DNA of 64,000 nt, taken from assembly GCA_020736575.1 (NCBI GenBank), contig JAGPYM010000009.1, forward strand, positions 1,282,565 through 1,346,564. Reading direction: 5' to 3'. The position numbers and the translations under genes were made by a program. Positions 39,379-55,346 of this stretch are shown here, in pieces (the stretch's first letter is position 1; every line of letters begins with the position of its first letter). The stretch is from Thelonectria olida (lineage: Eukaryota; Ascomycota; Sordariomycetes; Hypocreales; Nectriaceae). The notes under the pieces were generated by a model. It had not been told where the DNA came from. It did not search any database and worked only from the letters and a program-made list of their open reading frames with translations.

Positions 39379-42300
39379 TCACTTAGGATCTTGATTCCAA
39401 ATCTGGATTTGGAAGGCTACGGATAGAAAATTAGACTTGAATCTTCGAACTCACAATTTTGCCATTGGACAGATCACGTACCTTTTCTCTTCACCCGCAG
39501 AACGACGAGACCTCCCTTGAGTTTGTTTCGTCTATCAGTTGACCCTGCCAGTAGAAGAATTGTCAGCAAACCAAATATCATCTATCAACTATGAAAGGGT
39601 TATGATTCTCAGAATGACTTACCCCACAGAGCCTGTACTTTGCTCATGTCCCCTTGGGTTCTTCCTATACTGAGTGATATGGTGTTTTCCACAATTCCTT
39701 TTGGAAAAACAGGCCGATCTTTACTTGGTCGGTGGGGCGAGCCTGCCGTGCGAGTTTTACGAGACAAGCAATTCTTCAAGGAGTCAAATGTCACTGGAGT
39801 AGAAGGGCTTAGTAAGATACGTGAGTTGGGGGTTCTTTCAGGGAAGTCTGTACCAACAGACTCGTCTGGTGACAAATGATGAATCTCAATAGAGAAATTG
39901 GGTTGTCCGCTTGTGTAAATGATGGCGTGCTTGCGAAATCCTGGACCGTGGCCGTTTCGGAGGAAGATTACCCCTCTGTCTATTTGCGGCATGACAGGGA
40001 AGTAGATTTATGACACAAGCATCAGTGATATTCCCTGAATAATATGGCGCCAGGACGAAGACGTATTTCTTGCCGGTCTTGATCAGCCATTTTCGCTCGT
40101 TGGTGTCTTCTCCCTTCAATGGGAAGAAGCCACTGCCAGCAACGATGAGTTAGTGGACTGAGGAAAAAAATGTATGTATGTATGTATGTATATTTTTCGT
40201 CCGGGAGGCCGTGAGGCCCGTAAAGTCCCCTATGGGGGCACAGGACGTGCTGAGCTAGAATCTCTAATGCTAAAGTCTACGTAGTGCTAAAAGGTGGGGT
40301 TGTGTTTAGTCATTCGCGACGCGAAATTTGAGCCTCCCTTTTCTTCTCGTAAAACGCAGAACAGACCACTATCCAGCATATCATCGGCACGAAGGCGCAT
40401 TGTTTCGGGCTTGCTACCCGTCAGCGGGATGGCCAAGCACGGCTGTGACAATAGTAGCCGCTGTATGAACCCATCTCCAACAGGGAGAGGGAGGGCTGGG
40501 ATGAGGCCCTGGACGCGGCTGCACGAGGCGGCCTCAGGTGGTCTCAGTCAGATGAAGGGTGCTGCAACACCCCTCGTCTAGTCGAGCCCAGGTAATTGAA
40601 GAACAGGAACAAAAGAGAAGAGAAAATAAAGGGAGAGGAGGAGACGCGAGTGCGTCTCGGGTCAGCCTTGTCTAGTGATGAGGGCAGATCTTTTCGAAAA
40701 AGGCGCTTGATTTGGCCAGCTTGATGTACTTGTCGAAATCTCTTCCTATTGCGAGGTTGACCGCTGCAGTCGGCGAGGGGACAAGCCTCATTCGACATCG
40801 CGGCGGTACCTTTCTGCAGTAGAAGACATGGTCAGGTGCTTTGCGTCGACCGCACGAGCAGATCACCCGCGCATCGTTGTGGTTGAATCTTTCGTGGTAT
40901 GCAGCGAAGTCCCCATGGAGGGATCTTGCTGCGAGCAGATGGTGCAAAGCTGTCCGAGGGAGTGAGAGCTCCGGTGGGCAGCGTATAGTCGCCTTGAGAT
41001 TGAATTTCCTGTACTGCTCGGGGGCGGAAGTTGACCACCATGTTTCGAAAGCTTCTTTCGGTTTTTGCCTCGCCATCTTTCGCACGTATGCCAGCGTCGG
41101 CTGAGTGCCCTCCGGCTCCGGCAGCGACGAAGCAGATTTTGCCAGTTTGTCGGCTTGTTCGTTGCCGGGAATGTTCGTGTGGCCAGGTATCCAGCGCACT
41201 TGTGTAGCTCCATGTGATGCAGCTAAAGCCTGGAACTCGAGGAAGACTTCTTGTGAGGAGTCAGACGGTGTGCCGCGTAGGCATGTGGCGGCTGCCAGGT
41301 TGTCTAGGCAGACTACGATGTCCTGTGTCGCTGATCCTGGGAGGTCTAGGGCGGCCTTAAGGCCCTCCAGTGCTCCTGTAGCTTCAGCATCAAAGACCTC
41401 GACAGGTCCGAGGCGGCCTGAGCCGTTGGAGATGGGGAGGTTGTTCTGGTGAATGGCGAAGCCGTAGCTGGCTGCTCCCTTTGAGGACAAGGAGCCGTCT
41501 GAGTATACGATCAAGGTAAGTGAGTTTACTGACTGGATCCACTGGAGGAAGGCCTCAGCAGATTCTTCTTTCGATGCTATCTGTAAGGGTGTTCTCTGTT
41601 CCTTGTCGAAGCATTGCTGGATGAGGGACGGCCGCGTGCAGGGTGCGAGGAGCTCATCGGCTCGTCGAAGACGGGTCCTGAAGCTGCTCTCTGATGGGGT
41701 TTGGTACCTCCGCTTGATGAGCATATGGTATGTGGGTTGTCTGGGTGGAAGTGTGCGCTTCGCGAGGGGGTGGGCCTCGTCGAGGGATTTAAGTCGAGCG
41801 GAGAAACGGTATCGACGTGCTTCAAGAAGCTGAGCGACTGGCGGTATCCCGCTTTCCCGATGGAGGATGGCGATAGGGGTCGTCCTCCAGGCGGGGAGTA
41901 TAGCTCGCATAGATTGGTTAATGGCCTTGTTCATTCTCCGCAAGAAGTGTTGGATACTTGATGGCCGGTCTTTAGAGGGTTGGTTCCACCGCGGCCGGGT
42001 TGCACCTGGGTACCATACTTCAGCGCCATAGAGCAGGACTGGTTCAACGCACGCCCTGACGGCGCTCCGCACAGCACTGGGCAGCGGGCCGTGTTTCGTG
42101 TTGGTGAGTCCTCGTAGATGGTGGGCGACAGCCTGTGCTTTAGCCGTCCACTTCTCTACGTGGGCTCGAAATGATAGGCTGCTGTCCAGCCAGATGCCTA
42201 GCCAGCGCATAGCTGCTTCAGGGTGCTTCTCGACATCACCATGGCGTATTGCCGGTGCAGTCTTTAGTTTGCTCCGAGAGAAGTGCATGACTTCCGTCTT

Positions 42301-45300
42301 CTTAGGGTCGAAAGATACCCCGTTTTCCGCGCCCCAGCGGACTAGTTCTTCGACGGACTTTGATGCTGCAGCGGCTGTTTCCTCTACCGTGTCGCCTGTG
42401 CACAGGATGCCTGTGTCGTCTGCATAGCCGAATCGGCCCTGAGGGTTGCTTAGTCGGTAGATGGGCTCTGTATACAGCAGAAAAAGGATCGGCGATACCG
42501 GCGATCCCTGAGGGAGACCGCACTGGAGAGGAGATAGCGGGGTGATAGTATCTTGGTATCTGACGCAGGCAGATCGGTCGTCCATGAAGGATCCGGCCCA
42601 TCGTGCGAGATGTTCCGGCCAGCCTTGTTCGCGGAGCCGCAAAATCAGTCTGTTGCGCAGGACAGTGTCGAACGCGCCTTGGATATCCATCGTGACCAGG
42701 GTGGCCACCTTCTTGCGAGCAAATGCTTCCTCAATGTCGTGAACTAGGGCAGCCACGAGGTCTGTCGCAGACCTCTTCGGGAGCGCCCCAGCTTGTGGGT
42801 GAAGGACTCCGTAGTGAATACATGCCCACGCGAGACGGCGCGCGACCAACCGTTCTAGCCCCTTGCCGAGACAAGAAAGCAGAGAGATAGGTCGCCATGC
42901 CCGCGGCTCCGTCAGGTCTCTACGTCCAGGTTTGGCGATCATGACCACCTCGGCCGCCCTGAAAGGTTTCGGGTGGTGGCCTATGGCCAGGCACCCCTCG
43001 AAGAGGCGGCGAACGTGTGTTCCGATGATATGCCATACTGCTGTGAGGAGTTTGACTGTGATGTTATCTGCCCCCGGGGATGTATTCCCGGTACGGAGTG
43101 TCGCGTCCTGTGCTTCTTCTAGGGAGATTTCCTGCGGGAATGGGATCGTTTTGCGAGGGCTGACCTGGATCCAGGGTTCCTGGATATCGTCCTCAGCTGT
43201 TCGGCGCTCTAGAGTGGCTCGCCGGAGCGCGTTGGCCTTGTCGAGCTGGGTTTCGTAGACCACGTCGTCCACTTGCAGTGGAGGGGGTTGGAAGGCTCCT
43301 GGTGATCTCAGCCACCGCACGGCCTTGAAAACGGAGCTGCTATCTGAGAAGCTGTCGATCAGGTTCCGCCAATAGAGCCTTTTGGCACGGCGGACCACTT
43401 GGTGGAAATCTCGTTTCGCTAGCTGAACCTCTTGGTTGAATCCGAGGGGGTAGAGTCTTCTGATCGCACGGTATCCGGCTGCGGCCCGGGCGCACTCTTC
43501 GGTCCACCAGGGAGCGTTGCGCGCTCCCTTCCTCGCAGGCCGGCCCGCCGCCTTTGCTGCTGATTGTAAGAGGTTCACAAGCGCAGATGCGAGCTCGTCT
43601 AGCTCTAATGGGCCCGAGGCAGCGACGGGGATCCCAGTCGATCCGAGTTCTACGATTTCTACGAAGCGCTTGAGCTCGTCGTCTGTTGTTACGCGAATTT
43701 TGCCCGGTTGTATTGGGGCCAGCTTGATATCCGGGAGTGTTAGACTAAGAGTGAAGTGGTCAGAGCTGGTGGCGAGGTGGTCCTCAATGTTAGCTTCAGC
43801 AAGAGGTACATTCGTAAAGGCGAGGTCGATAGTGTTTCCATGGGGGTTTGTAGGGATGTCTGAAGTGTTCAGCAGGCCGAGGCCGTTTTCCGATGCCCAA
43901 GAGGCGATATCATTGCCACGGTTCGTAGTCAGGCCTGTCTGCCAGGTGTGGTGTCTGGCGTTAAAATCACCTGCCACGAGGCAGCGATCGGGGATAGGCC
44001 ATTGCCGTAGAGTGTCCAATGCATCGCTTTCGTCGTTCTGACGATAGAAGTTAACTATTATTATATCATTGACCGTGAGCCACAGGATATCGCGGCTTAT
44101 GTAGGGTCGGATCTGGTCTGCCAAGAGCTTAGAATCACGGCGGATATATGTCATGACTCTGGGTCGAGTGCTATTGCTATCCCAGGCTTCGACTGGGGAG
44201 TAGGTGTCATATGCTGGGTGGGTCTTCGTGAGGCAACGGGAGTTTGCCATCGTTGTCCATGGTTCTTGGAGGAGCACGATATCGTATCGTTCAGAGTCTG
44301 CCAATGCAAGGGCACAGTCATGGGCCGGGGGCACCTTGCCGACGTTGGCCTGAAAGACTCGGAGAGTCTTTCTACCACATCTTCGTGCTCGTGGGCGTCT
44401 ACTCATGCTCGTGCTCATGAGGGCGCGTGATGAGGACGATGCGGCGCTTCCTTGGAGAGCCAGGTCTTGGGTGCTCGGGTTCCCCCTCTGCTTCGGGGGT
44501 TGTGGCCACCATTATGCATGAGGGCGCTCTCGACGCGGCGGGACTGGGAGCGAGAGGGCTGGGTCGTTCTTGCGACCCGGCGCTATCGTGTTGTGGGTCG
44601 AGTGCGCGTTGTTGCGGTTCTGAATTGCGCTGGCGGTATGTCTCAGCGCCTACCGTTCGGATGTGGTCTCTTTGCTCTTTGGTCAGCCGGCGGAACACGC
44701 CGTGCACTTTCTTCGGGCGAGCTGGGCACTTGGCGAAGTTGGCGCTGTGCGGGCCGCGGCAGTTGGCGCATTGTTCTGGGGCAGTGCAGTCCACGGAGTC
44801 GTGGCCAGTCTTACCGCAGCGTACGCACAGAGGGCGTCTATGGCAGGTGCGCAGCGGGTGGTAACCCAAGCATACGTCGCACTGCTTAGGGCGGTTGGTT
44901 TTCTTGATGAGCCTTGCTGGTCGGCTGCTGAATAGGCACCAATGCTTTTTGACTGGTTCGAGAAAAGATACGAGTAGAGTTTTTGTTAGAGGGTTGTCCG
45001 ATTGGCGTCGTGTAGGGCGTATGTCGACAGGCTTCAGCCCTGTCTGAATCTCAATTTCTTCGTTCATAGCCGCATCACTGTCCGCCTCGTTACCGTAGAG
45101 GTCGGTCAGTTTGCAGGGGTAGTCTGGGACTACATATGTAAACCATTCCTTGTTAGTCTCTATGGTAGCGGCCCCTAGATCGGCTGCCCATTCCGTTCGT
45201 TTCTGCACGAGGAGGTCGCGGGTGGCTATATCGATCGTGAGGACGGCCCATCCGGACCTGACTTGGAATACCCGCGGGATCTTGTGTGGGTCCACTCCGA

Positions 45301-46322
45301 GTTTCCGAGAAATATGGGTCCGGATTGCGTATTCCTTGTGGGCTCTAGCCGGAGCTCCGGCGTCTAACCGGATGAAGACACGGAGGTCCTCTCGGGGTGG
45401 GGCAACAGCGGTCGGTTGCCCTTGGCGATGAGTGGGGGTTTGTTGTTGATGGTGTTGATGATGTTGATGTTGGTGGGCAAGGGAATTATTTGCAGCTGGG
45501 GGCGAAGCCGCGACGGTGCTGTAGGTAGGCACGGGGGCAGATTTGGCGTCAGTGAGCGCCCGGTTCCATGAATCCAGGAAGCTATTAGCAAAGTTTCGAG
45601 CGAATTCTCGTTCGAGTCCAGTGGTGAATTGTTTCGCCGCTTCTTCGAATTTAGCACAGAAGGCCTGAAACACCTTCAACTTGGCATTATACTCCTCCAC
45701 ACGCTCGCGTGCGAGCCTATTGGCTGATTCAATAAGGGATACTGGTTGCTGTTCAGTGGTCCGAGCAGGAGAGGGGGGGGAGGGACGGGCAAGCTGGGCT
45801 CCTTCTGTGGCCGCAGTAGTAGAGACCGCATTGAGCGGCGAAGACGGCGTTTGAGCGGTCCTCCCGAAGGCGGGCGGGACACCGACAGGTCCATTCACAA
45901 CAGCGGGGCTGTTTTGCAAGAGGGCTGTGCGGGCTCCTCGATTGAGATTGCCGGGAGTGTGGATTCCCAGGTCAAAGGGATCTGGGACAACAGGCGGACC
46001 GGTGGCCGATGCCATCGCCGCCGCCAGAGGCTGCGCGGAGCGCAGGATTGTGGTTGTTGCGTTGCACTTGTTAGGGAAAAGGGTGTAATTAAGGCTACTT
46101 TCTTAACATCTGCGTGCCAAGAAAGTAAGATGACGAAGGAAGGTTGTGAGGAAAAAAATGGCATGGGCATGAAGGGCCCTACAGGGTACTGCGGACGGAA
46201 GTTTCGCCTATCTTCACTAGATTCGAACGTACATCTCTCATAGCACCCGCATACCATAAGATGGGAGGAAAAACAGGATCATAATAGAAAGCAGGCACGC
46301 CACAAGCGCCCATCTTCAACAT
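39379..46322 (-). CDS. Unknown gene whose first intron appears to contain the LINE insertion
   Basis: No family recognised. Exon 1 (46322-46183) starts at ATG and reads MLKMGACGVPAFYYDPVF, then WYAGAMRDVRSNLVKIGETS, ending VRSTL in phase 2 at a GTAGGG donor. Exon 2 (from 40132) resumes in matching phase with GFFPLKGEDTNERKWLIKTG and KKYVFVLAPYYSGNITDA. A frame change at about 40000 then leads to DRGVIFLRNGHGPGFRKHA, continuing to ALWG at 39623; this is either a 37-bp intron (short) or a frameshift. A small exon 39544-39482 encodes NKLKGGLVVLRVKRK, and a last exon probably ends at TGA 39379-39381. Without the LINE and one copy of its duplication the first intron would be 62 bp, with CTAAC and CTGGCAG at its 3' end, like other introns here. 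Whether the present ~6-kb intron is spliced is unknown. Confidence 0.55.
40159..40172. repeat. Target-site duplication of the LINE, 3' side copy
   Basis: TGAGGAAAAAAATG, identical over 14 bp to 46147-46160. It abuts the (TATG)n tail of the element, as expected for target-primed reverse transcription at an A/T-rich site. Confidence 0.93.
40672..44418 (-). CDS. LINE ORF2: endonuclease / reverse transcriptase / RNase H polyprotein
   Basis: 1248 residues that copy the element RNA into its target. An APE-type endonuclease covers about residues 15-235 (FQANVGKVPPAHDCALALAD, IVLLQEPWT, GDFNARHHTW, and SSDHFTLSL with the catalytic His). The reverse transcriptase spans about 470-740, with GAFDTVLRNRL, GLPQGSPVSPILF and the catalytic box GYADDTGIL at about 664. 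RNase H lies at about 965-1110, with acidic residues in VYSDGS, AEATGALEGL, VVCLDNLA and NEQADKLAK. A C-terminal Cys/His finger (CSCGRRKAPDHVFYC) is at about 1189. Its ATG overlaps the ORF1 stop by about 20 nt, which suggests re-initiation after ORF1. All catalytic residues appear present. Confidence 0.95.
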   Translation of the reverse strand: MSTSMSRRPRARRCGRKTLRVFQANVGKVPPAHDCALALADSERYDIVLLQEPWTTMANSRCLTKTHPAYDTYSPVEAWDSNSTRPRVMTYIRRDSKLLADQIRPYISRDILWLTVNDIIIVNFYRQNDESDALDTLRQWPIPDRCLVAGDFNARHHTWQTGLTTNRGNDIASWASENGLGLLNTSDIPTNPHGNTIDLAFTNVPLAEANIEDHLATSSDHFTLSLTLPDIKLAPIQPGKIRVTTDDELKRFVEIVELGSTGIPVAASGPLELDELASALVNLLQSAAKAAGRPARKGARNAPWWTEECARAAAGYRAIRRLYPLGFNQEVQLAKRDFHQVVRRAKRLYWRNLIDSFSDSSSVFKAVRWLRSPGAFQPPPLQVDDVVYETQLDKANALRRATLERRTAEDDIQEPWIQVSPRKTIPFPQEISLEEAQDATLRTGNTSPGADNITVKLLTAVWHIIGTHVRRLFEGCLAIGHHPKPFRAAEVVMIAKPGRRDLTEPRAWRPISLLSCLGKGLERLVARRLAWACIHYGVLHPQAGALPKRSATDLVAALVHDIEEAFARKKVATLVTMDIQGAFDTVLRNRLILRLREQGWPEHLARWAGSFMDDRSACVRYQDTITPLSPLQCGLPQGSPVSPILFLLYTEPIYRLSNPQGRFGYADDTGILCTGDTVEETAAAASKSVEELVRWGAENGVSFDPKKTEVMHFSRSKLKTAPAIRHGDVEKHPEAAMRWLGIWLDSSLSFRAHVEKWTAKAQAVAHHLRGLTNTKHGPLPSAVRSAVRACVEPVLLYGAEVWYPGATRPRWNQPSKDRPSSIQHFLRRMNKAINQSMRAILPAWRTTPIAILHRESGIPPVAQLLEARRYRFSARLKSLDEAHPLAKRTLPPRQPTYHMLIKRRYQTPSESSFRTRLRRADELLAPCTRPSLIQQCFDKEQRTPLQIASKEESAEAFLQWIQSVNSLTLIVYSDGSLSSKGAASYGFAIHQNNLPISNGSGRLGPVEVFDAEATGALEGLKAALDLPGSATQDIVVCLDNLAAATCLRGTPSDSSQEVFLEFQALAASHGATQVRWIPGHTNIPGNEQADKLAKSASSLPEPEGTQPTLAYVRKMARQKPKEAFETWWSTSAPEQYRKFNLKATIRCPPELSLPRTALHHLLAARSLHGDFAAYHERFNHNDARVICSCGRRKAPDHVFYCRKVPPRCRMRLVPSPTAAVNLAIGRDFDKYIKLAKSSAFFEKICPHH
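44399..46015 (-). CDS. LINE ORF1: gag-like RNA-binding protein with CCHC knuckles
   Basis: 538 residues from ATG 46015 (MASATGPPVVPDPFDL). It is expected to coat the element RNA. The first half is Pro/Ala/Ser-rich, with a helical region (SANRLARERVEEYNAKLKVF) that may drive oligomerisation, and a Gln/His-rich stretch at HQHQHHQHHQQQ. A central folded region has VFIRLDAGAPARAHKEYAI. Three Cys/His knuckles follow at about 379-440: CDVCLGYHPLRTC, CVRCGKTGHDSVDC and CANCRGPHSANFAKC. The C-terminus is basic (PRKRRIVLITRP) and ends with alternating His-Glu. This matches gag-like ORF1 proteins of the Tad1/Jockey group. Confidence 0.92.
   Translation of the reverse strand: MASATGPPVVPDPFDLGIHTPGNLNRGARTALLQNSPAVVNGPVGVPPAFGRTAQTPSSPLNAVSTTAATEGAQLARPSPPSPARTTEQQPVSLIESANRLARERVEEYNAKLKVFQAFCAKFEEAAKQFTTGLEREFARNFANSFLDSWNRALTDAKSAPVPTYSTVAASPPAANNSLAHQHQHHQHHQQQTPTHRQGQPTAVAPPREDLRVFIRLDAGAPARAHKEYAIRTHISRKLGVDPHKIPRVFQVRSGWAVLTIDIATRDLLVQKRTEWAADLGAATIETNKEWFTYVVPDYPCKLTDLYGNEADSDAAMNEEIEIQTGLKPVDIRPTRRQSDNPLTKTLLVSFLEPVKKHWCLFSSRPARLIKKTNRPKQCDVCLGYHPLRTCHRRPLCVRCGKTGHDSVDCTAPEQCANCRGPHSANFAKCPARPKKVHGVFRRLTKEQRDHIRTVGAETYRQRNSEPQQRALDPQHDSAGSQERPSPLAPSPAASRAPSCIMVATTPEAEGEPEHPRPGSPRKRRIVLITRPHEHEHE
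46147..46160. repeat. Target-site duplication of the LINE, 5' side copy
   Basis: Identical 14 bp to 40159-40172. It marks the 5' end of the element at 46146. Confidence 0.93.
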
Positions 46323-46410: not shown

Positions 46411-47277
46411 TCACAGAGCATGGACAAACTCTCCGTCCGTTTCCGACACCAATATCCCGTCTTCTTCAGCCAGCTCCTCGACGCGGAAGCTTCTCACCGG
46501 CACCGATTCGAGTGTGTTCCCGATGACGACATCCGCCTCATCCTCAATTTTCTCATCTTCCGCCTTCTCTTCTTTCGATTCATCGCTCAGCCCCGCACCT
46601 TGGCGGTTCAGCTCGAAGCTCAGCCTCTTCTTGGACTTGCGCCACCCCTTGGACGTGATTCGGTGAACCTGGTAAGCAAAAATGGCCTCTTCCTTCACTT
46701 CAGCCTTCTGGAGGCTGGTCCAGTTGCTCGCCCTCTTAACCTGCCCGCCCGCCTTGGTATCCTCTTTTATCTGGCCCGACAGCTTGGCGTGGGCGTCGCT
46801 CGTCGTGCCCAGTCTGATCTCCCACGTGAGGCTCGTCGAATACTTGATGCCCGTGACTATGTAAATAGGGCCTTTACCTAGGTATTTCTGAAGCTTCTCT
46901 TCGTCGTTCACCCTCTTCTCGAAGTACTCGTGCAGGTCTTTGCCCGTGAATGTATCCGTCTCCAGATTCTCGATCTTGTAGACCACGTGTGAATCCTTGG
47001 ACGCTTCCACGCCGATGTTTCCGCCGAATGTCCGTAGATACTCCAGCCAAGCCTCCGCGCCCATTTTGGACCCGCGGTCTTCCGTGATCTCGCGGTCAAC
47101 TTCCATTGCCGATGGCTTCACTTTGGGTGGCAGTAGTTTCGGGTCCCTGAACGATATCGGGACGTCGTCAACCTCGAGGGCATTTTTGAAGATGTTCCCG
47201 AGCGCAATCTGGCCGCCGCGGCGAAAGGAAAACCCCGAGCCCGGAGCGATTATGTACGACTTCAACGGCGAAGACAT
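46411..47277 (-). CDS. Gasdermin-like pore-forming cell-death effector (HET-Q1/RCD-1 family)
   Basis: Predicted executor of regulated cell death: fungal gasdermins oligomerise in membranes after a partner protease removes an inhibitory C-terminal tail. The start is ATG 47277 (MSSPLKSYIIAPGSGFSF), giving 288 residues, close to HET-Q1. Supporting text is an N-terminal LGNIFKNALEVDDVPISF, then MEVDREITEDRGSKMGAEAW, a central HVVYKIENLETDTFTGKDL, and the strand PIYIVTGIKYSTSLTWEI (about 138-154), which parallels the VYVVTEV-type strand of animal gasdermins. A highly charged linker (DESKEEKAEDEKIEDEAD, about 231-250) precedes a ~38-residue tail, a plausible cleavage region. There is no signal peptide. 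A subtilisin-like protease gene lies 557 bp upstream on the same strand, the arrangement known for het-Q1/het-Q2. The family call rests on motif resemblance plus this neighbour. Confidence 0.78.
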   Translation of the reverse strand: MSSPLKSYIIAPGSGFSFRRGGQIALGNIFKNALEVDDVPISFRDPKLLPPKVKPSAMEVDREITEDRGSKMGAEAWLEYLRTFGGNIGVEASKDSHVVYKIENLETDTFTGKDLHEYFEKRVNDEEKLQKYLGKGPIYIVTGIKYSTSLTWEIRLGTTSDAHAKLSGQIKEDTKAGGQVKRASNWTSLQKAEVKEEAIFAYQVHRITSKGWRKSKKRLSFELNRQGAGLSDESKEEKAEDEKIEDEADVVIGNTLESVPVRSFRVEELAEEDGILVSETDGEFVHAL

Positions 47278-47834
47278 GATTTGCGGTGGCCGAGCCGACA
47301 CTGTGGAGCGAATGGTAGGATGGTAGATAACGGAAGAGGGCGCACTTGGTTGCTGCTCCGTGGAACACTCGGCTTTTTATCGCGCAGAATTGTCGATCTC
47401 ACGCGCTCTCCGCAGCTGCTGACTTGCGCAAGCTGGACTCGCGCCACGTACCATTTTTTAACCAATAGTGCTCATCGATTGAACGCTGCACTGCATGTTT
47501 CTTTAGGCATCCATGCATGATGTATAGACTATAGCATCGGCAAACCCGAATGAGTTGGAAAATGCCACGGCTACGAGGCTTGTGAGGGAAACGATCATGT
47601 GACCTTCATACTTCATGAATACCCTCACTTGGTGAATATTGTGTAAATAGATTAAGTCAGAGCGTTCTTGAAGAATCTCTGTCTGTTCTTGTAAACAATC
47701 ATTTTGCCCAAGTCGCACCCGACCTCGTTCGTGCTCTTGTACGACGCGTCACAAGGCTGGGGAAGCTTGACTTGTCAAGATGATTCTGCTGAGATATGAA
47801 CGTCGAAACCTCGTTGGCCACCGTGGCTGAATGA
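47278..47834. other. Intergenic region between gasdermin-like and protease genes
   Basis: 557 bp between co-oriented genes. It carries the gasdermin promoter and the protease 3'UTR. No ORF or repeat was recognised. Confidence 0.55.
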
Positions 47835-50800
47835 TCATGATTCCTTTTTCAGCGCCGACTTGACAGCTGGTCTCCGCTTCTTCAACTCCCCCGCAGCGGT
47901 CACCAACAGTGATTCCCAACTTGCCTGGTCTTTTTCCCTGAAGAGCTGCCAGGGGTTCAAATACCGGCGATCGCCGTCTTTCCTGGTCAACATCTCGAAC
48001 AGGGCCAGCATTCCATCTGCCTCGAACAGCCGTTCTAGATGGGGCACGTGGGGATCACCTTCGGACAGGCAGCCCAACTTCCACAGCGCATACTGTAGGT
48101 ATGTAGCAGCGATTGCGGCCATGATGGGCGCGGCAATAGAGCAGCCCGACATGGTCAACACCTCGCTCCGTTTCTCATCCTTGATCCATTTGTGCGTGCA
48201 GGGGACTTCGACGGCGAGCGTACCGTACAGCACGCCGTCGCCTTTCGGGTTATAGCGGGCTTCGAATCCGCCATTGTGGTTTGTTCCACGGGCGGATATG
48301 GTAAGATGCCGGGACGAGGCCGGAAATCGCTCCGATTCGTTCCGACCTTGGTTGTTTGCTGCGGCGAATATGAGTAAACGCCTGTTGCGCATGTCCCGTC
48401 CGAGTGCATCTTCAATAGCATGCTCGATGGACTCCGGCGTATCCAAGAAACCGAACGACAGCGTAATTACGTCGACAGCCCATTTTTCCGCGGCGTGACG
48501 AATAGCCTACGCTCAAGATTAGTGTCCTAAACTTTGTAGCCAAGCCCTTTAACATAGGCACGGCGAGAGAAAGATGCAGTAAGCATAGCTGCCTAACGAA
48601 ACCCTTTACCTTCGAAATAGCCTCCTCGACACCCGGAGCGTTGAATTCTTCCTTGGTCCTCGCAACGCGTCCTATGAAGATTTCCGCTCGGGGCAGCAAC
48701 ATCAGAAGCGCCGTGGTAATCTTCGTTCCGTGGCCGTCAACGTCGACAGGCTTCGGGCTCTTCTCGTCGTCGATGAAATCTTTCCATTGCGCTCCCATTA
48801 TGCGCTGCTTATCAGCCTCGTTGTGCATTTCGTCGAAAAACTCCGTGTTCAGGTCGCAACCGGTGTCCAGCACGGCGATTTTTACCTTTCTCGGCAGCGT
48901 CTTCTGCTCCGTAAGAGGCACAAACACATCATCGTCGATTTTGATAAACTCTTGCAGCCATTTGAGCGCGCTAATGGCTTTGTCCCGCGTGTACTTGTCG
49001 CTGTTCCGAGAACTATTAGCTTCTGATTGCGAATCATCTCAGGGAGGAGTCATCACTCCGACAGAATCGAATCAGATGTGCTCTCACCTGGGCCACGTGC
49101 TTGACGCTTCCTTCTGTAGAAAGTTCAAGTACTCCATGTACCTTTCTGATTGACTTTTTACTTTCTTTTTCCTGATACTGATCCTGCCCCTATCTCGCGC
49201 TTTGTCCTCAAGAAGGTTTCCTGGCGCGTAAAGTTGGGAAGCCATGTTTGAGTTCTGGAAACTCTCCAGGAGGCTATCTTCGGAATTAGATGGCTCCGGG
49301 GATGAACTATCCAGGTGGTCCGATGCGACCGTATCTTGCTGCTTTTTCGTCATTGCTGTGGGATCTCTCGTGGGTGCGTCAATTCCATTGCTCGAAGGGT
49401 GGATCTCTTGCTCGTCGTTTCCAGCCTCGGCATTGGAGTCGAGCTGAGAGGCTCCGGAAGTGTTCACGGGTGTCTGATCGGTGTTGAGCTGAGCCTTGTT
49501 TCCTTGGAAGACGAATACGTCCAAGTCTTCGGCGCGAGAACTGGTACCACAGAGTTTTATCAGACTTTCTTCTAAAGGCATTATGACATGCTGGTAGAAT
49601 AGTTCGCATTCCTCAGAATCGCCACTAGCGGAAGTTCCAGCAATATCCAAGATCCCGTCGATAGAATTTATAATGAATTCGTAATCCGAGACCTCGCGAT
49701 ACGGCTCAAGATGCTCCTGGACTTCAAAATATACCTCCATGAACAGGCTGTTTGAGACTTCGAAATCATGTCTTGCTGGGCCGATATCCAGTGGCTTCTG
49801 TTGAAACAGCTCTAAAAGCAGGATCCCCAGGTCAACACGGGCGCCCAGGCTCGATTCACAGTCTAAGCGAGGTAGTAGCTGGCCATCGATATCGGCTTTG
49901 GGCCTTTCGTGTTTCGCAGAAACAGCTGAGGGCACAAACGGCAGGAACGGGATCAATAGCGTCCCTGATTTTGTGGTAATAAGTTGAAATTGGTCCTTAT
50001 CCAGTGTTCTGGGGATCCACGGTCCTCCATAGTGGTGAAGAAATGACGTGGCAACGAGGATAGCAAGGCGTGTCAACACCTGGAGGGACAGCGGCGGACC
50101 GTTGGGTGAGCTGGCCAAAGCGTTTAGAAAATCCCGAAATGAGATAGGACGAGCCGACGAGAGCTGCTGAGAGTCGAAACGTGCTCTCTTCCTGGGACGG
50201 TCTTGTCGTAAGCCGCTACCATCTGCTACAAGGGCTCCTCGTAGATCGGACATGTAGCCGCGGTTGAAGCGTGCGATGTAAGAGCATATGGTGACAGGTT
50301 CGCACGTAGGTCTTCCTGAGAACTTCACCCGTCTGGCCTCATCTCCCCCAGAAGATCTATCTTTTACATCGGAAGACACAGGGACCTTGATTTCCGTATC
50401 AAACCACCGCCGGCTCATAGATGGCGGCGTACCGGTGATCAGCACGTCAAACGTAATGTCGCTGTCTTTTGCCTCGGAGAAACTCAGATGATTTGCCATG
50501 AAAAGCAGTGCTTCATGTGACGAAGGACAAGAGCACTTGGACTTCTCCAGAGAGCCCTGGAGAACGTGGTGAAGCGAGGCGGCGAATTCGTGAACGTTGT
50601 ACGAGGGCCGCTGTCTGCCAGAAGATCCGGGAATGATGTCCCGTAATCGCGTGGTCCATTCTTTTATTTCTACGTTTAGCTTGGGGTGTTTCCGCTTTAG
50701 GTGCTGCGATAGCTTTTGTGGTGTGCTGCGTCGAATAGCCTCGAGCCCTGGAAATGACCGTACTGCATACTGGGAGTAATGCGCTCAGCGATATTCAAAC

Positions 50801-51099
50801 ATGATGGTATATTCTCGACCCGAGCCACCCACCTCGGACCGTGCATCCTCGTCCGCAAGATTATCCAGGCATTGTAAAAGCTCTCGTAGAGCGTTGGTGC
50901 ATTCTTTCTCAAACCGCAATTTTCGATTTCCAAAGTGATCTGGCAGCTTCTGCAGGACGTTCTGCAGTAGCCGGAACTCGGATCTCAGGGGCGTCTTGAA
51001 CTCCCAATCGGCATCATCACGTCCTGTCGATGAAAGAGCGTCGAGGAATGTGGGGAGAACATTATCGAGGCGTTTCAACAGGTCCTTGGGCGACTCCAT
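47835..51099 (-). CDS. Subtilisin-like serine protease with DUF7580-like N-terminal region (HET-Q2-like)
   Basis: Probable processing protease for the neighbouring gasdermin. Exon 1 from ATG 51099 (MESPKDLLKRLDNVLPTF) is a helical region. The next exons carry a DUF7580-like region: HEFAASLHHVL, then LQVLTRLAILVATSFLHHYG and PRLDCESSLGARVDLGILLLEL. A Ser/Glu-rich disordered linker with a basic patch (SIRKKKVKSQSERY) precedes the S8 domain. The catalytic triad is Asp in KIAVLDTGCDLN (about 48865), His in VDVDGHGTKITT (about 48735) and Ser in LTMSGCSIAAPIMAA (codon 48138-48140); the oxyanion Asn is probably in FAAANNQG. Clean splices join EEAISK to AIRHAAEKWAVDVITLSFG, and STWPR to a short exon with NSDKYTRDKAISALK. 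The protein ends KSALKKES. The open frame 51122-51532 could add an upstream exon. Confidence 0.85.
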
Positions 51100-51559
51100 C
51101 TGCGACAAAACACCAACGACATTAAAGGCAACGCGACGGAAGATCAGGCGAAGTTAGAGAGGGCAAGCGCATAGCGTGCGGCCTTATCGCCCTGGTACTT
51201 TTCAGCTCATCACATGACTGGAGCGGGGTTGACAAACCGGGACATGCCTCATCAAAGTGCTCAACCGGAGGTATCTTCGGCAGGCCACAGGCGATTATTT
51301 GATAAATAGCTCTGTTCCTATTTTCATTGTTATATTCAAAAGGAGCTCTGGCTCTATCAATCCTATCCTGGTCTCTTCGTGTGCCGTCGCTGAAACTTGT
51401 CTCGATATCGGCCCATAGCGGAGTTGGGCCGACAGCACGTTCTCCGACGATCATGAGGCCAGAAGCCAGCCATTCAGCCCCCAGAGACTTTGTTTCGGCC
51501 TCGATTCTGGCGTGTGTTCGGATAAAATTCAAGAGTCTTCACGCTCACTCTGAGAGGGG
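51100..51559. promoter_or_regulatory. Shared divergent promoter region (protease / kinase), possibly with an extra 5' exon
   Basis: 460 bp separate the predicted ATGs of the protease (minus) and the kinase-like gene (plus). A 136-codon minus-strand frame (51532-51122; HARIEAETKSLGAEW, YNNENRNRAIYQIIACGLP) fills most of it and has coding character. An acceptor-like TTTTGTCGCAG lies directly before ATG 51099, so this frame may be a 5' exon of the protease gene, leaving almost no intergenic space. Co-expression of the two genes is a reasonable inference. Confidence 0.45.
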
Positions 51560-54500
51560 ATGTTTTCAGATCGGGTATTAAGCGTGAGAGATCGCGCCAA
51601 GATATGCAATGAGGGTCTTGAAAACCTCGGGGGCCTCTGCAAGCAGCTCTCCGGGCGCAGTCACGACAAAGTAGTCAAGTTGCTCAAGCGATGGAATGGC
51701 TGGATCGACGGAATCGGCGTGTTCGCCGAGTATCGCCTCTCGCTCGACTATCGACTACGGAAGGCGCCAAGGCTTGCCGAGACCTTGCTGGACATGCTTG
51801 ACCTGTTAGACTTTCAGATATGTCGAGGTATTCCTAAAACCACATCGCGTTTCTCTCTTCTTGCTCTCGTCCATCTTTAACACACATCTTTGAGGCGCAT
51901 TTTACTGACCATGGAATTATTTAGCAATAACCGCAGCAAGCGATCCTCAGTCGTCAGAAGACAGCCTCGTGCCAGAACTGGACCCAATCTATGATTCCAT
52001 TGACTGGCTTCATAGGTTCTCTCTGACTGTTCGAAACTCGGTGCCTAGGGATCCTCTATCGTTGGCAGCCAGATTCATGACCGACGAAAGGGGATCGAAG
52101 GAGATGGCTTCTTTTGCCGATGCAGTGCGAGAGATTCTCGAGATGAAGATGATATCCGTTGGCAGCAAGCTTGTCGATCGACTAGTCGATGCCGTTTGCC
52201 TTCGTCGAAGATACTTCATGTATTGCCAGGCGCATCAGACGAGGCTCGCCACACGGGTCGAACTGCCCGAACAAGAGGCCGAGCAATATCCCGCTGATGA
52301 CCGACAGCCCGATGTGCAGCCTGTGGATCTTGCCAATCCTTTCGTGTTCACTGCTACTACGCTGACAGACGAACCTGGTGTCGACCAAGAGTCAACGACA
52401 GTTACCGATGTCGTAGATCGCGACGTGCACGATTCTGGCCGAACGGCATCGCCAACGCCTTCGTCAAATGCGCCAACTTCCAACTGGATCGACTACGTTG
52501 GGGAGCTTCAAGTCCCCCCTGCCCCGGAGATCGGGGACGATAGGGAGCATCGATGTCCGTATTGTTGTCTGACCCTCCAGGCAGAAACCTTTAATGATCC
52601 CGAAGTCTGGCTGCGGCATGTCACGGAAGATCTGAGGCCTTACATCTGCATGCATGAAGACTGCCCTTTTCCAACTCAGCTTTTCAGCTCGACCAGAGCC
52701 TGGAAGGAGCATCTGCGGAAGCCTCACTCTTCGGAGTGGGTGTGTCCTGTTCACGCTCGAGGCTCGGAAGGACGATCGAACACGGCCGTTGGAAGCCAGG
52801 ATGCTTCAATTTTCACCACCGAATCCGACTTTCACAACCACCTGGAGAACGAACATCCCGGAATGTTCTCGTCGAAGCAGATTGATATTCTGAAACGCAG
52901 GAGTGTTCGGACAGTGCGGCCCATAGTCGCCTCTCCCTTCTCTGAACCTGGCGGATCTCATGACGTCTCGTCCGCGACGAGGGATATATATCATCGTGTT
53001 GGTGAACATCTGTTAAAAATAGCTCTTCTGTCATTGCCTCGGCGAACAGATCTAGAGCAGGATCAGGATAGAAAGAAGAGTGAGTGGCAGATGGGAATTG
53101 AGCAGTTTGTGAGCACCGAGGCATGCGTAAACATCCAGGAATGGTTTAATTCACAACCCCAAAACAACGATGCACTAGGAGAGCTACCAACGGAGCCGCT
53201 AGAGGACCTACCAGAGGAGACGCCGGAGGAGCCACCGGAGGAACTACCAGCGGAACCATTAAGTCAAACGCCAGAGCAACCATCATTGGAACTACCAGAC
53301 GAAACACAGGAGCCGCCAATGGAACCACTAACTCAACCATCAGAGGCACCATCAGAGGAACCACCAGAGAAATCAGCGGAGAAGCCACCCGAGGAGTCAC
53401 CAGAGAGAGCGCCAGAGGGACCGGTAGAGGAACCGTCAGAGAACCGATCAGACGAATCACTGGAGGATACAATCGATAGAACACTTGAGGACCGGATCTT
53501 CATGAATTTCGTCCGGAGCAGCTTCGACTTTGACTATGAACAGGATTTCCTGCCCCAGGGGTGCCTGGAGAAGCTCATCACGAGGGCTTCGGTCCTCAAG
53601 ACGGTCGAAAGGGACGAGATCGATCCAGGCCTTTTAAACTTCATAACCAACTCAGCGAAAAAGGTGTTTGCCATCACAGTGTTGTGCGGCTGGGAAGGTC
53701 GGCGCCTCTACCTGGTCATGGAGAAGTTCAGGGAAGACGGCTTTCACGACAAATCCCTCCCTGTCAAGACAGCGAGTGGCCTGTCCAGTATCAGCTGCTT
53801 CAAGAGGTGGACCAAGGCCACGCGACTCCATTTCATCAAGTGCCAGTGGAAGTTTCTGGTGCCGATTTTCCCCAGAGTCAGAAGCAAGGCGGATCTACAT
53901 CTGAATCTAGATCCACAGTGCATCCTGCCTTTCACGTCGGCGAAGAGGTCGGGAACATTTGGAAACATCTACCAGGTCACCATCCACCCCGATCATCAAG
54001 AAGATCCCATGAGGAAGGTTAGTCGGCCAAAGAAGGGCACCTCTCAACACGAGCTATTTACTGATAGTTTTCCCTTCGTTTCACAGGCAAACGGGGACCT
54101 TGCCAACGCGGCCATCAAGGTACTCAGGGAACTCCAGGCCGCGAGCGGCATGGATGACGAGACTCGATACATGCGTGAAGACTGGCGGCAGGAGGCGAGG
54201 GCGCTCGAAGACATCATCGATCTCGACCACCCGCACATAATGCAGGTCAAAGCCATCATAACGCGCGGCACGAGTCACTATGCCATGTTCCAGTGGGCCG
54301 ACGGCGGTAGCCTCCGTGATTTCTACCAGAGCACCCGGCGTCCGAATCTCAACGCGGCTTTCGTTCGAGAAATCATCACGCAGCTTTACGGACTGGCCGG
54401 AGCGCTCAGCAAGCTACACTACTACAAGGGCAAGGGGTCGTACCGGCACGGCGACCTGAAGCCCGAGAACATACTGAGGTTCAAGGACAAAACACAGATT

Positions 54501-55346
54501 GGAATCCTCAAAATCGCCGATATGGGATTGCGTGGTCGTCCCATCGTTTCGCGCTACGGCACGCGCGCATACGCGCCCCCAGAAGTGATGACCATGACCG
54601 GCGCTCATGGGTCCCGCCTGTACGACATCTGGTCCATGGGCTGCATATGCCTCGAGCTCGTCGTCTGGCTCCTCTACGGGTGCGACACGCTTCGCGACTT
54701 CAACAACAGCCTGATCATCCCGCCGTGGAACGCCGGGCCCTACTGGTTGGTCGACGACGCCCAGGTGCATCCAAATGTCGTAGCGTGCATGGATTATATC
54801 GAAGAGAAGGATCCCGAGTGCGACCGACCATCGGCGATAAGCGACCTCCTTGAAATCGTCAAGACAAAACTGCTCATAGTTCTTCTACCTCCCGAGAGCA
54901 GATCGACCTCTTTGAATCCCACCTCTCCCCCGAGTACTCAGGCCCGGCAGCGATCACTCCCGGGACCGACTTTCGGTTCGTTCCGCACCACTGCCCCAGA
55001 GTTTTGCAGCGCTCTGGAAAGCATTCTTGAAAACAAGGACGAAAGCTACTGGTACAGCGGAATATCTAGAGACCGCGTCGCACCCATGCCGATAAACCCG
55101 AAACCTTGGGCGACCCCTTTCACCCCTGAAGATCTCGCCGGAGTTGACACGCAGATTACTGACACAGTGGCGGGCACGACGAACATTGAAGGCCCGATTA
55201 TTAATGTGTCGCCTCGCGACGACACGAGAGAATTAACCGAACCGCGTGAGCTACAGGCCGCCCCGGGGCTGCTTGGCTCTTCTTCGAGACTCAATGTAGG
55301 CGCTCTCCATTCAGCCGTCACCAGTGTTCTATTTTCCTCACCCTGA
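51560..55346 (+). CDS. Large C2H2-finger / Pro-Glu repeat / protein kinase fusion
   Basis: Two exons, 51560-51827 and 51925-55346, join QICR to AITAASDPQ and give 1229 residues. The N-terminal ~230 residues (LKRWNGWIDGIGVFAEYRLSLDYRLR) are a helical fungal module often seen before zinc fingers or NACHT domains. Degenerate C2H2 fingers start near residue 299: HRCPYCCLTLQAETF, then RPYICMHEDCPFPTQLF, SEWVCPVHARG and FHNHLENEH. A Pro/Glu repeat follows at about 500-605. The kinase domain is at about 795-1010: glycine loop RSGTFGNIYQV, lysine in ANAAIKVLREL, catalytic loop YRHGDLKPENILRF (HGD instead of HRD), metal motif IADMGLRG (DMG instead of DFG), and APE as YAPPEV. It may be active although non-RD. 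A C-terminal ~200-residue tail is disordered. Its divergent pairing with the protease suggests a role in the same response. Confidence 0.85.
53165..53480. repeat. Imperfect Pro/Glu-coding short repeat inside the kinase gene
   Basis: Runs of imperfect 9-15 bp units containing GAGGAACCACCAG/GAGCCACCGG encode (L/E)PEE-P type text (LPEETPEEPPEELPAEPL). This is low-complexity, charged and likely extended or disordered. Length variation between strains is expected. Confidence 0.8.

Follow-up and report, generated by a model that had tools for sequence, protein, structure and literature searches.

Does a fungal gasdermin gene that lies beside the gene of a subtilisin-like protease form a cell-death switch with it, and what would trip such a switch? 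The question is raised by a stretch of 64,000 nucleotides from Thelonectria olida (hereafter the window; NCBI GenBank assembly GCA_020736575.1, contig JAGPYM010000009.1, positions 1,282,565 to 1,346,564), which forms the end of one contig (C155) of a genome of 52.5 Mb in 165 contigs. Here, a gene for a gasdermin-like protein of 288 amino acids (aa) adjoins a gene for a 1003-aa protein that combines a DUF7580 domain with an S8 peptidase, and a zinc-finger gene runs divergently from the latter (Table 1). We consider this locus to be, with good probability, a regulated cell-death cluster with a gasdermin-protease switch. Its sensor matters all the more in that the stimuli activating fungal death sensors are called a major unanswered question in PMC12881547.

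The preliminary description, made from the letters alone, had seen gasdermin-type blocks in the 288-aa protein, and both blocks were located in the open reading frame (ORF), HVVYKIENLETDTFTG at residues 97-112 and PIYIVTGIKY at residues 137-146. The Pfam scan of this protein returned no gasdermin match and phmmer with the single sequence against the PDB returned noise only; both being uninformative, profiles were needed to establish its identity. The NCBIfam profile prok_gasdermin matched the single sequence with an E-value of 1.6e-7 (31 bits, below its cut-off of 100), and profiles of the gasdermin family matched RCD-1, HET-Q1 and bacterial gasdermins in the PDB, with profile A3 reaching RCD-1-1 at 1.1e-17 and the HET-Q1 pore chain at 1.1e-10. 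A fold with no gasdermin similarity would have spoken against the original proposal; the AlphaFold2 (AF2) model instead had gasdermins as its top structural matches, RCD-1 chains being the best. The window protein thus belongs, by family and by fold, to the fungal gasdermins. The charged linker and short tail that had also been claimed are there as well: the C-terminal part amounts to 57 residues of acidic character beyond residue 231, with a net charge of -15 beyond residue 230 (-9 over residues 232-258 and -6 over 259-288), and a C-terminal net charge of -13 to -24 was found in all eight full-length gasdermins measured, the window protein included.

For the adjacent gene, 91 intron combinations kept the frame open, and a four-exon model (introns 50832-50770, 49087-49001 and 48609-48507) was chosen because its product is identical over the full length (100%) to the T. 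olida protein B0T10DRAFT_325096 at NCBI. Pfam recognised in the spliced protein both Peptidase_S8 (E 1.7e-16) and DUF7580 (E 6.1e-9), each above the cut-off, and the catalytic Asp, His and Ser (numbered in Table 1) are all in place together with N832. The protein is therefore an S8 protease with its catalytic residues intact, as the preliminary description had held. The Ser box reads SGCSIAAP, where the usual box has GTS. The two genes are indeed co-oriented, both lying on the minus strand with the protease upstream, and 557 bp separate their coding parts, which is well within the 10 kb from a gasdermin gene by which an S8 or CHAT protease with intact catalytic residues counts as HET-Q2-like (Q2L). 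A homology search with the protease passed only three other proteins: the nearest, from Nemania, shares 57% identity across 389 residues in the S8 half, the one from Tolypocladium has the same two domains, and the one from Fusarium is a kinase-S8 protein. An AF2 model of the protease, built from 4 sequences, was unusable (mean predicted local distance difference test score, pLDDT, 36). As a separate matter, the protease annotated in Nemania sp. FL0031 (P0043, 599 aa) carries a partial second S8 end ahead of its full domain, and perhaps represents two genes fused by annotation.

Linkage of such genes was followed across the genome. Single-protein genome searches (some matches weak, E up to 0.03) and a profile run on selected loci brought out eleven gasdermin genes. 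An S8 gene stands no more than 7 kb from 10 of them, a DUF7580 gene with S8 no more than 6 kb from 8, and a zinc-finger gene no more than 9 kb from 9. One gasdermin gene (C132) was found only by scanning the locus of its protease, and without it the counts are 9/10, 7/10 and 8/10. The genomic searches gave 26 DUF7580 matches, resolved into 25 sites (two of them below the cut-off), to which the window copy, missed by the search, was added by hand; 42 S8 matches were merged into 34 sites. A gasdermin gene was present within 10 kb at all nine DUF7580 sites that have S8 within 4 kb and at 0 of the other 17 (Fisher 3e-7), the latter figure coming from 6 sites whose 10-kb stretches were scanned with a profile and 11 covered by single-protein searches. 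Likewise, 11 of the 34 S8 sites have a gasdermin gene no farther than 10 kb away, namely 9/9 with DUF7580 and 2/25 without. Gasdermin therefore travels with the protease, and chiefly with the DUF7580-S8 form, so that the never-linked pairs which would have undone the earlier proposal were not what we met. Two of the nine sites share one locus (C24), and the binomial values computed for linkage serve as a guide only, assuming independent and uniform placement. A paralogous gasdermin on contig C9 is the T. olida protein B0T10DRAFT_46330. In Nemania, the protease relative and the gasdermin orthologue each lie on a contig of 137,881 bases, which suggests that they share one contig; linkage in other species was judged solely from such contigs of equal size.

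Two features go beyond the preliminary description, namely the kinase-likeness of DUF7580 and the neighbouring zinc-finger gene. When a profile of 12 DUF7580 copies was compared with the PDB, the best 60 of 78 matches were all kinases, and these matches, weak and covering part of the domain only, ran from 1.2e-4 to 1e-3 (LIMK2 1.2e-4, IRAK4 3.9e-4, MLKL 7.1e-4). One copy (L014) also matches Pkinase at 5e-5, below the cut-off, and neither HRD nor DFG was seen by eye in the aligned window copy. DUF7580 thus looks kinase-like and is probably a pseudokinase, as far as profiles and motifs can tell. Other DUF7580 proteins carry other outputs, PNP_UDP_1 in one (L019, contig C90) and HeLo in another (L014, contig C133); HeLo was found at L014 only, a locus with no zinc-finger gene within 10 kb. 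By Pfam, no known N-terminal membrane domain was recognised in DUF7580 genes on pieces of six loci (L004, L008 and L017-L021, less L014).

The zinc-finger gene of the window carries a module with the motif DLxPYxC...C...W..H and a kinase domain; besides kinase-type matches it gave only weak ones (E up to 1), and neither the NACHT nor the NB-ARC plus repeats of a NOD-like receptor (NLR) was recognised. Searches with three members brought out 18 genes of this family in the genome, 15 of which have a DUF7580 gene no more than 5 kb away (12/15 when the three queries are set aside); of the rest, two have a gasdermin gene at up to 4 kb and one (C78:1970k) is near neither. The zinc-finger and DUF7580 genes are divergent in 12 of the 15 pairs, two of these with a gasdermin gene in between. 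A zinc-finger partner is present at 8/9 DUF7580 sites with S8 and at 8/17 without (Fisher 0.09), which indicates that this gene goes with DUF7580 rather than with gasdermin; on C9 no zinc-finger gene was found, the contig stopping 2.6 kb beyond DUF7580. Other domains were sought at 15 of the 18 loci (the C78, C84 and C88 genes being left out). Within the zinc-finger ORF itself we recognised the kinase of the window, WD40 (L018) and ankyrin (L021); in the next same-strand ORF, which we take to be joined to it, NACHT (L010, L027), TPR (L029), TPR with CHAT (L026) and DUF7779 (L031). Altogether, a kinase, WD40, ankyrin, NACHT, TPR or CHAT domain goes with the zinc-finger gene at 7/15 loci, and no other domain was recognised at 7/15, several of them clipped by the stretch end.

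This arrangement gives rise to the thought that the zinc-finger protein may be the sensor of the gasdermin-protease switch, a proposal we advance tentatively on the strength of synteny and domain architecture in a single genome; with family members so close to 9 of 11 gasdermin genes, it at least offers a concrete candidate. It is also possible, if somewhat less likely in our view, that the zinc-finger neighbour instead regulates transcription of the pair, or is the receptor of a separate pathway that shares the locus. The prevailing divergent orientation, the zinc-finger genes at DUF7580 sites devoid of S8 (hence not gasdermin-specific) and the loci with no further domain would fit such a role, whereas the close tie of the family to DUF7580, which persists without the query genes, and the additional domains at 7/15 loci are more receptor-like.

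How, then, might the locus operate? The gasdermin would be produced in an inactive state, with the acidic linker and tail (roughly residues 232-288) holding back the pore-forming core, and the neighbouring kinase-like/subtilisin protein would be its dedicated activator. Once released, the S8 domain would cut the linker at roughly the site of HET-Q1 cleavage, and the freed core would form pores in the plasma membrane and kill the cell, steps that are carried over by analogy from HET-Q1/HET-Q2. The HET-Q1 chain in the PDB stops where residue ~230 of the window gasdermin aligns, and our guess for the cut is therefore ~232-240. The upstream signal may come from the divergent zinc-finger/kinase gene, the likely order being sensor, pseudokinase-protease and gasdermin pore, in the service perhaps of non-self recognition or defence. 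More speculatively, and with considerable doubt on our part, the whole may be a modular three-part relay: a zinc-finger receptor whose end is interchangeable (kinase, WD40, ankyrin, NACHT, TPR or CHAT), a divergent DUF7580 pseudokinase bearing an output (subtilisin at gasdermin sites, phosphorylase or HeLo in two others), and death by gasdermin. The window receptor being itself a kinase, a kinase-to-pseudokinase step of the RIPK3-MLKL kind would then release the protease and fire a pyroptosis-type pore. If DUF7580 is indeed a pseudokinase, necroptosis-like and pyroptosis-like pathways would have a signalling part in common.

Several observations weigh against a cleavage-controlled switch. The TM-scores of the 12 best Foldseek matches, 0.24-0.41 on the query, are low, and the gasdermin tail has low pLDDT in the AF2 model. 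Identity to four orthologues is lowest in the linker (41%) and the tail (45%), against 55-72% in the core, so that a specific latch is hypothetical. RCD-1 of Neurospora crassa is a fungal gasdermin able to act without cleavage (PMC12881547); one gasdermin gene of T. olida (C57:273.9k; L025, C57:270000-278500) has no S8 nearby; no protease relatives to go with the Stachybotrys, Monosporascus and Cryphonectria gasdermins were found among the 7993 candidates scored; and clusters arisen by duplication would not be independent evidence. The C57 gasdermin gene adjoins a zinc-finger gene and an ORF that by eye looks HET-domain-like, and at another locus (L023, C80:268500-273500), again as read by eye, a gasdermin gene is flanked by a CHAT-like ORF and by an S8 ORF with ankyrin-like repeats, and so perhaps has two candidate activators.

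Two other explanations of the pair have to be weighed. That the protease is inactive or has another substrate, its adjacency reflecting the clustering of immune genes in islands, would be in keeping with the SGCS box and with the position of some S8 genes (C24 and others) amid other immune-type genes; we judge it improbable, since D, H, S and N are in place, the SGCS box is also kept in the Nemania protease, and DUF7580 sites without S8, likewise rich in immune-type neighbours, yielded no gasdermin in the scans and searches (0 of 17). Slightly less probable still is an RCD-1-like gasdermin, uncut and triggered when unlike alleles meet after cell fusion, with the protease an uninvolved neighbour, for although RCD-1 chains are the best fold matches and RCD-1 functions uncut, the profile also matches HET-Q1 and gasdermin follows S8 at DUF7580 sites without exception.

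Among known systems, the switch proposed here most resembles that of Podospora anserina, in which HET-Q1, a 278-aa gasdermin with a short C-terminal part, is partnered by the subtilisin-type S8 protease HET-Q2 of 388 aa (PMC10989679). The preliminary description had likened the two pairs, and the likeness stands as to gasdermin fold and genome linkage; it does not extend to an orthologous pair, HET-Q2 being a stand-alone S8 protein and the window protease a far longer one with a kinase-like domain, and the HET-Q cut (F238, 40 residues lost) is experimentally mapped while that in the window is predicted. About 80% of fungal gasdermin genes are clustered with protease genes and about 63% with S8 (PMC10197012), and fusions of proteases with predicted kinase-like domains are on record (PMC12881547), so the gasdermin-protease pair alone is a further case of a known arrangement. 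By contrast, the recurrent divergent zinc-finger gene goes unmentioned in the available parts of these two papers. RCD-1, the best match in sequence and fold, differs in having no cleavage control, whereas the window gasdermin has a protease neighbour. MLKL/RIPK3 offers an analogy of working, through the kinase domains matched by the DUF7580 profile and the kinase next door, although those matches are weak and partial and the output in the window is a protease. Sordariales NLRs, of which 34 have C2H2 zinc fingers and a few PKinase (PMC12258605), resemble the window gene in these domains, but no NACHT or NB-ARC domain was recognised in the latter. Literature searches turned up no paper for 'DUF7580' and none for the zinc-finger/DUF7580/gasdermin set, nor any description of a relay of these three. 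The rule zinc finger, DUF7580, S8, gasdermin can be checked in other fungal genomes.

Table 1. Features of the locus in window coordinates
Feature	Position	Strand	Basis
Gasdermin-like protein, 288 aa, single exon (stop included)	46411..47277	-	family profiles, prok_gasdermin match, AF2 model
Acidic linker and C-terminal tail of gasdermin, residues 232-288, putatively inhibitory	46414..46584	-	net charge, conservation
DUF7580-subtilisin protease gene, 1003 aa; exons 51099-50833, 50769-49088, 49000-48610, 48506-47835	47835..51099	-	Pfam, NCBI protein identity
DUF7580 domain, residues 149-491, kinase-like	49564..50592	-	Pfam; profile of 12 copies against kinases
Peptidase_S8 domain, residues 687-920, intron 48609-48507 inside; D695, H740, S903	48087..48891	-	Pfam
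Spacer between the divergent genes, possible shared promoter	51100..51559	.	sequence
Divergent zinc-finger/kinase gene; large ORF 51969-55346; putative intron and start near 51560	51560..55346	+	
Zinc-finger module, ORF residues 194-303	52548..52877	+	motif common to family
Protein kinase domain, ORF residues 714-898; AIK, HGDLKPEN, DMG motifs	54108..54662	+	Pkinase E 1.9e-20

The surroundings of the locus deserve a brief remark. The terminal 5 kb of this contig (window 59001-64000) are TA-rich with 10-20% G+C and resemble the wear left by repeat-induced point mutation; inspection of the final 300 bases by eye showed no telomere repeat. On the other side, a retrotransposon of the long interspersed nuclear element (LINE) type with two long ORFs of 538 and 1248 aa occupies 40672-46015 on the minus strand and ends some 400 bp from the stop of the gasdermin gene. 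Three more copies of a 1501-base piece of it exist at 100% identity (two on C109, one on C81), which points to recent movement of this element.

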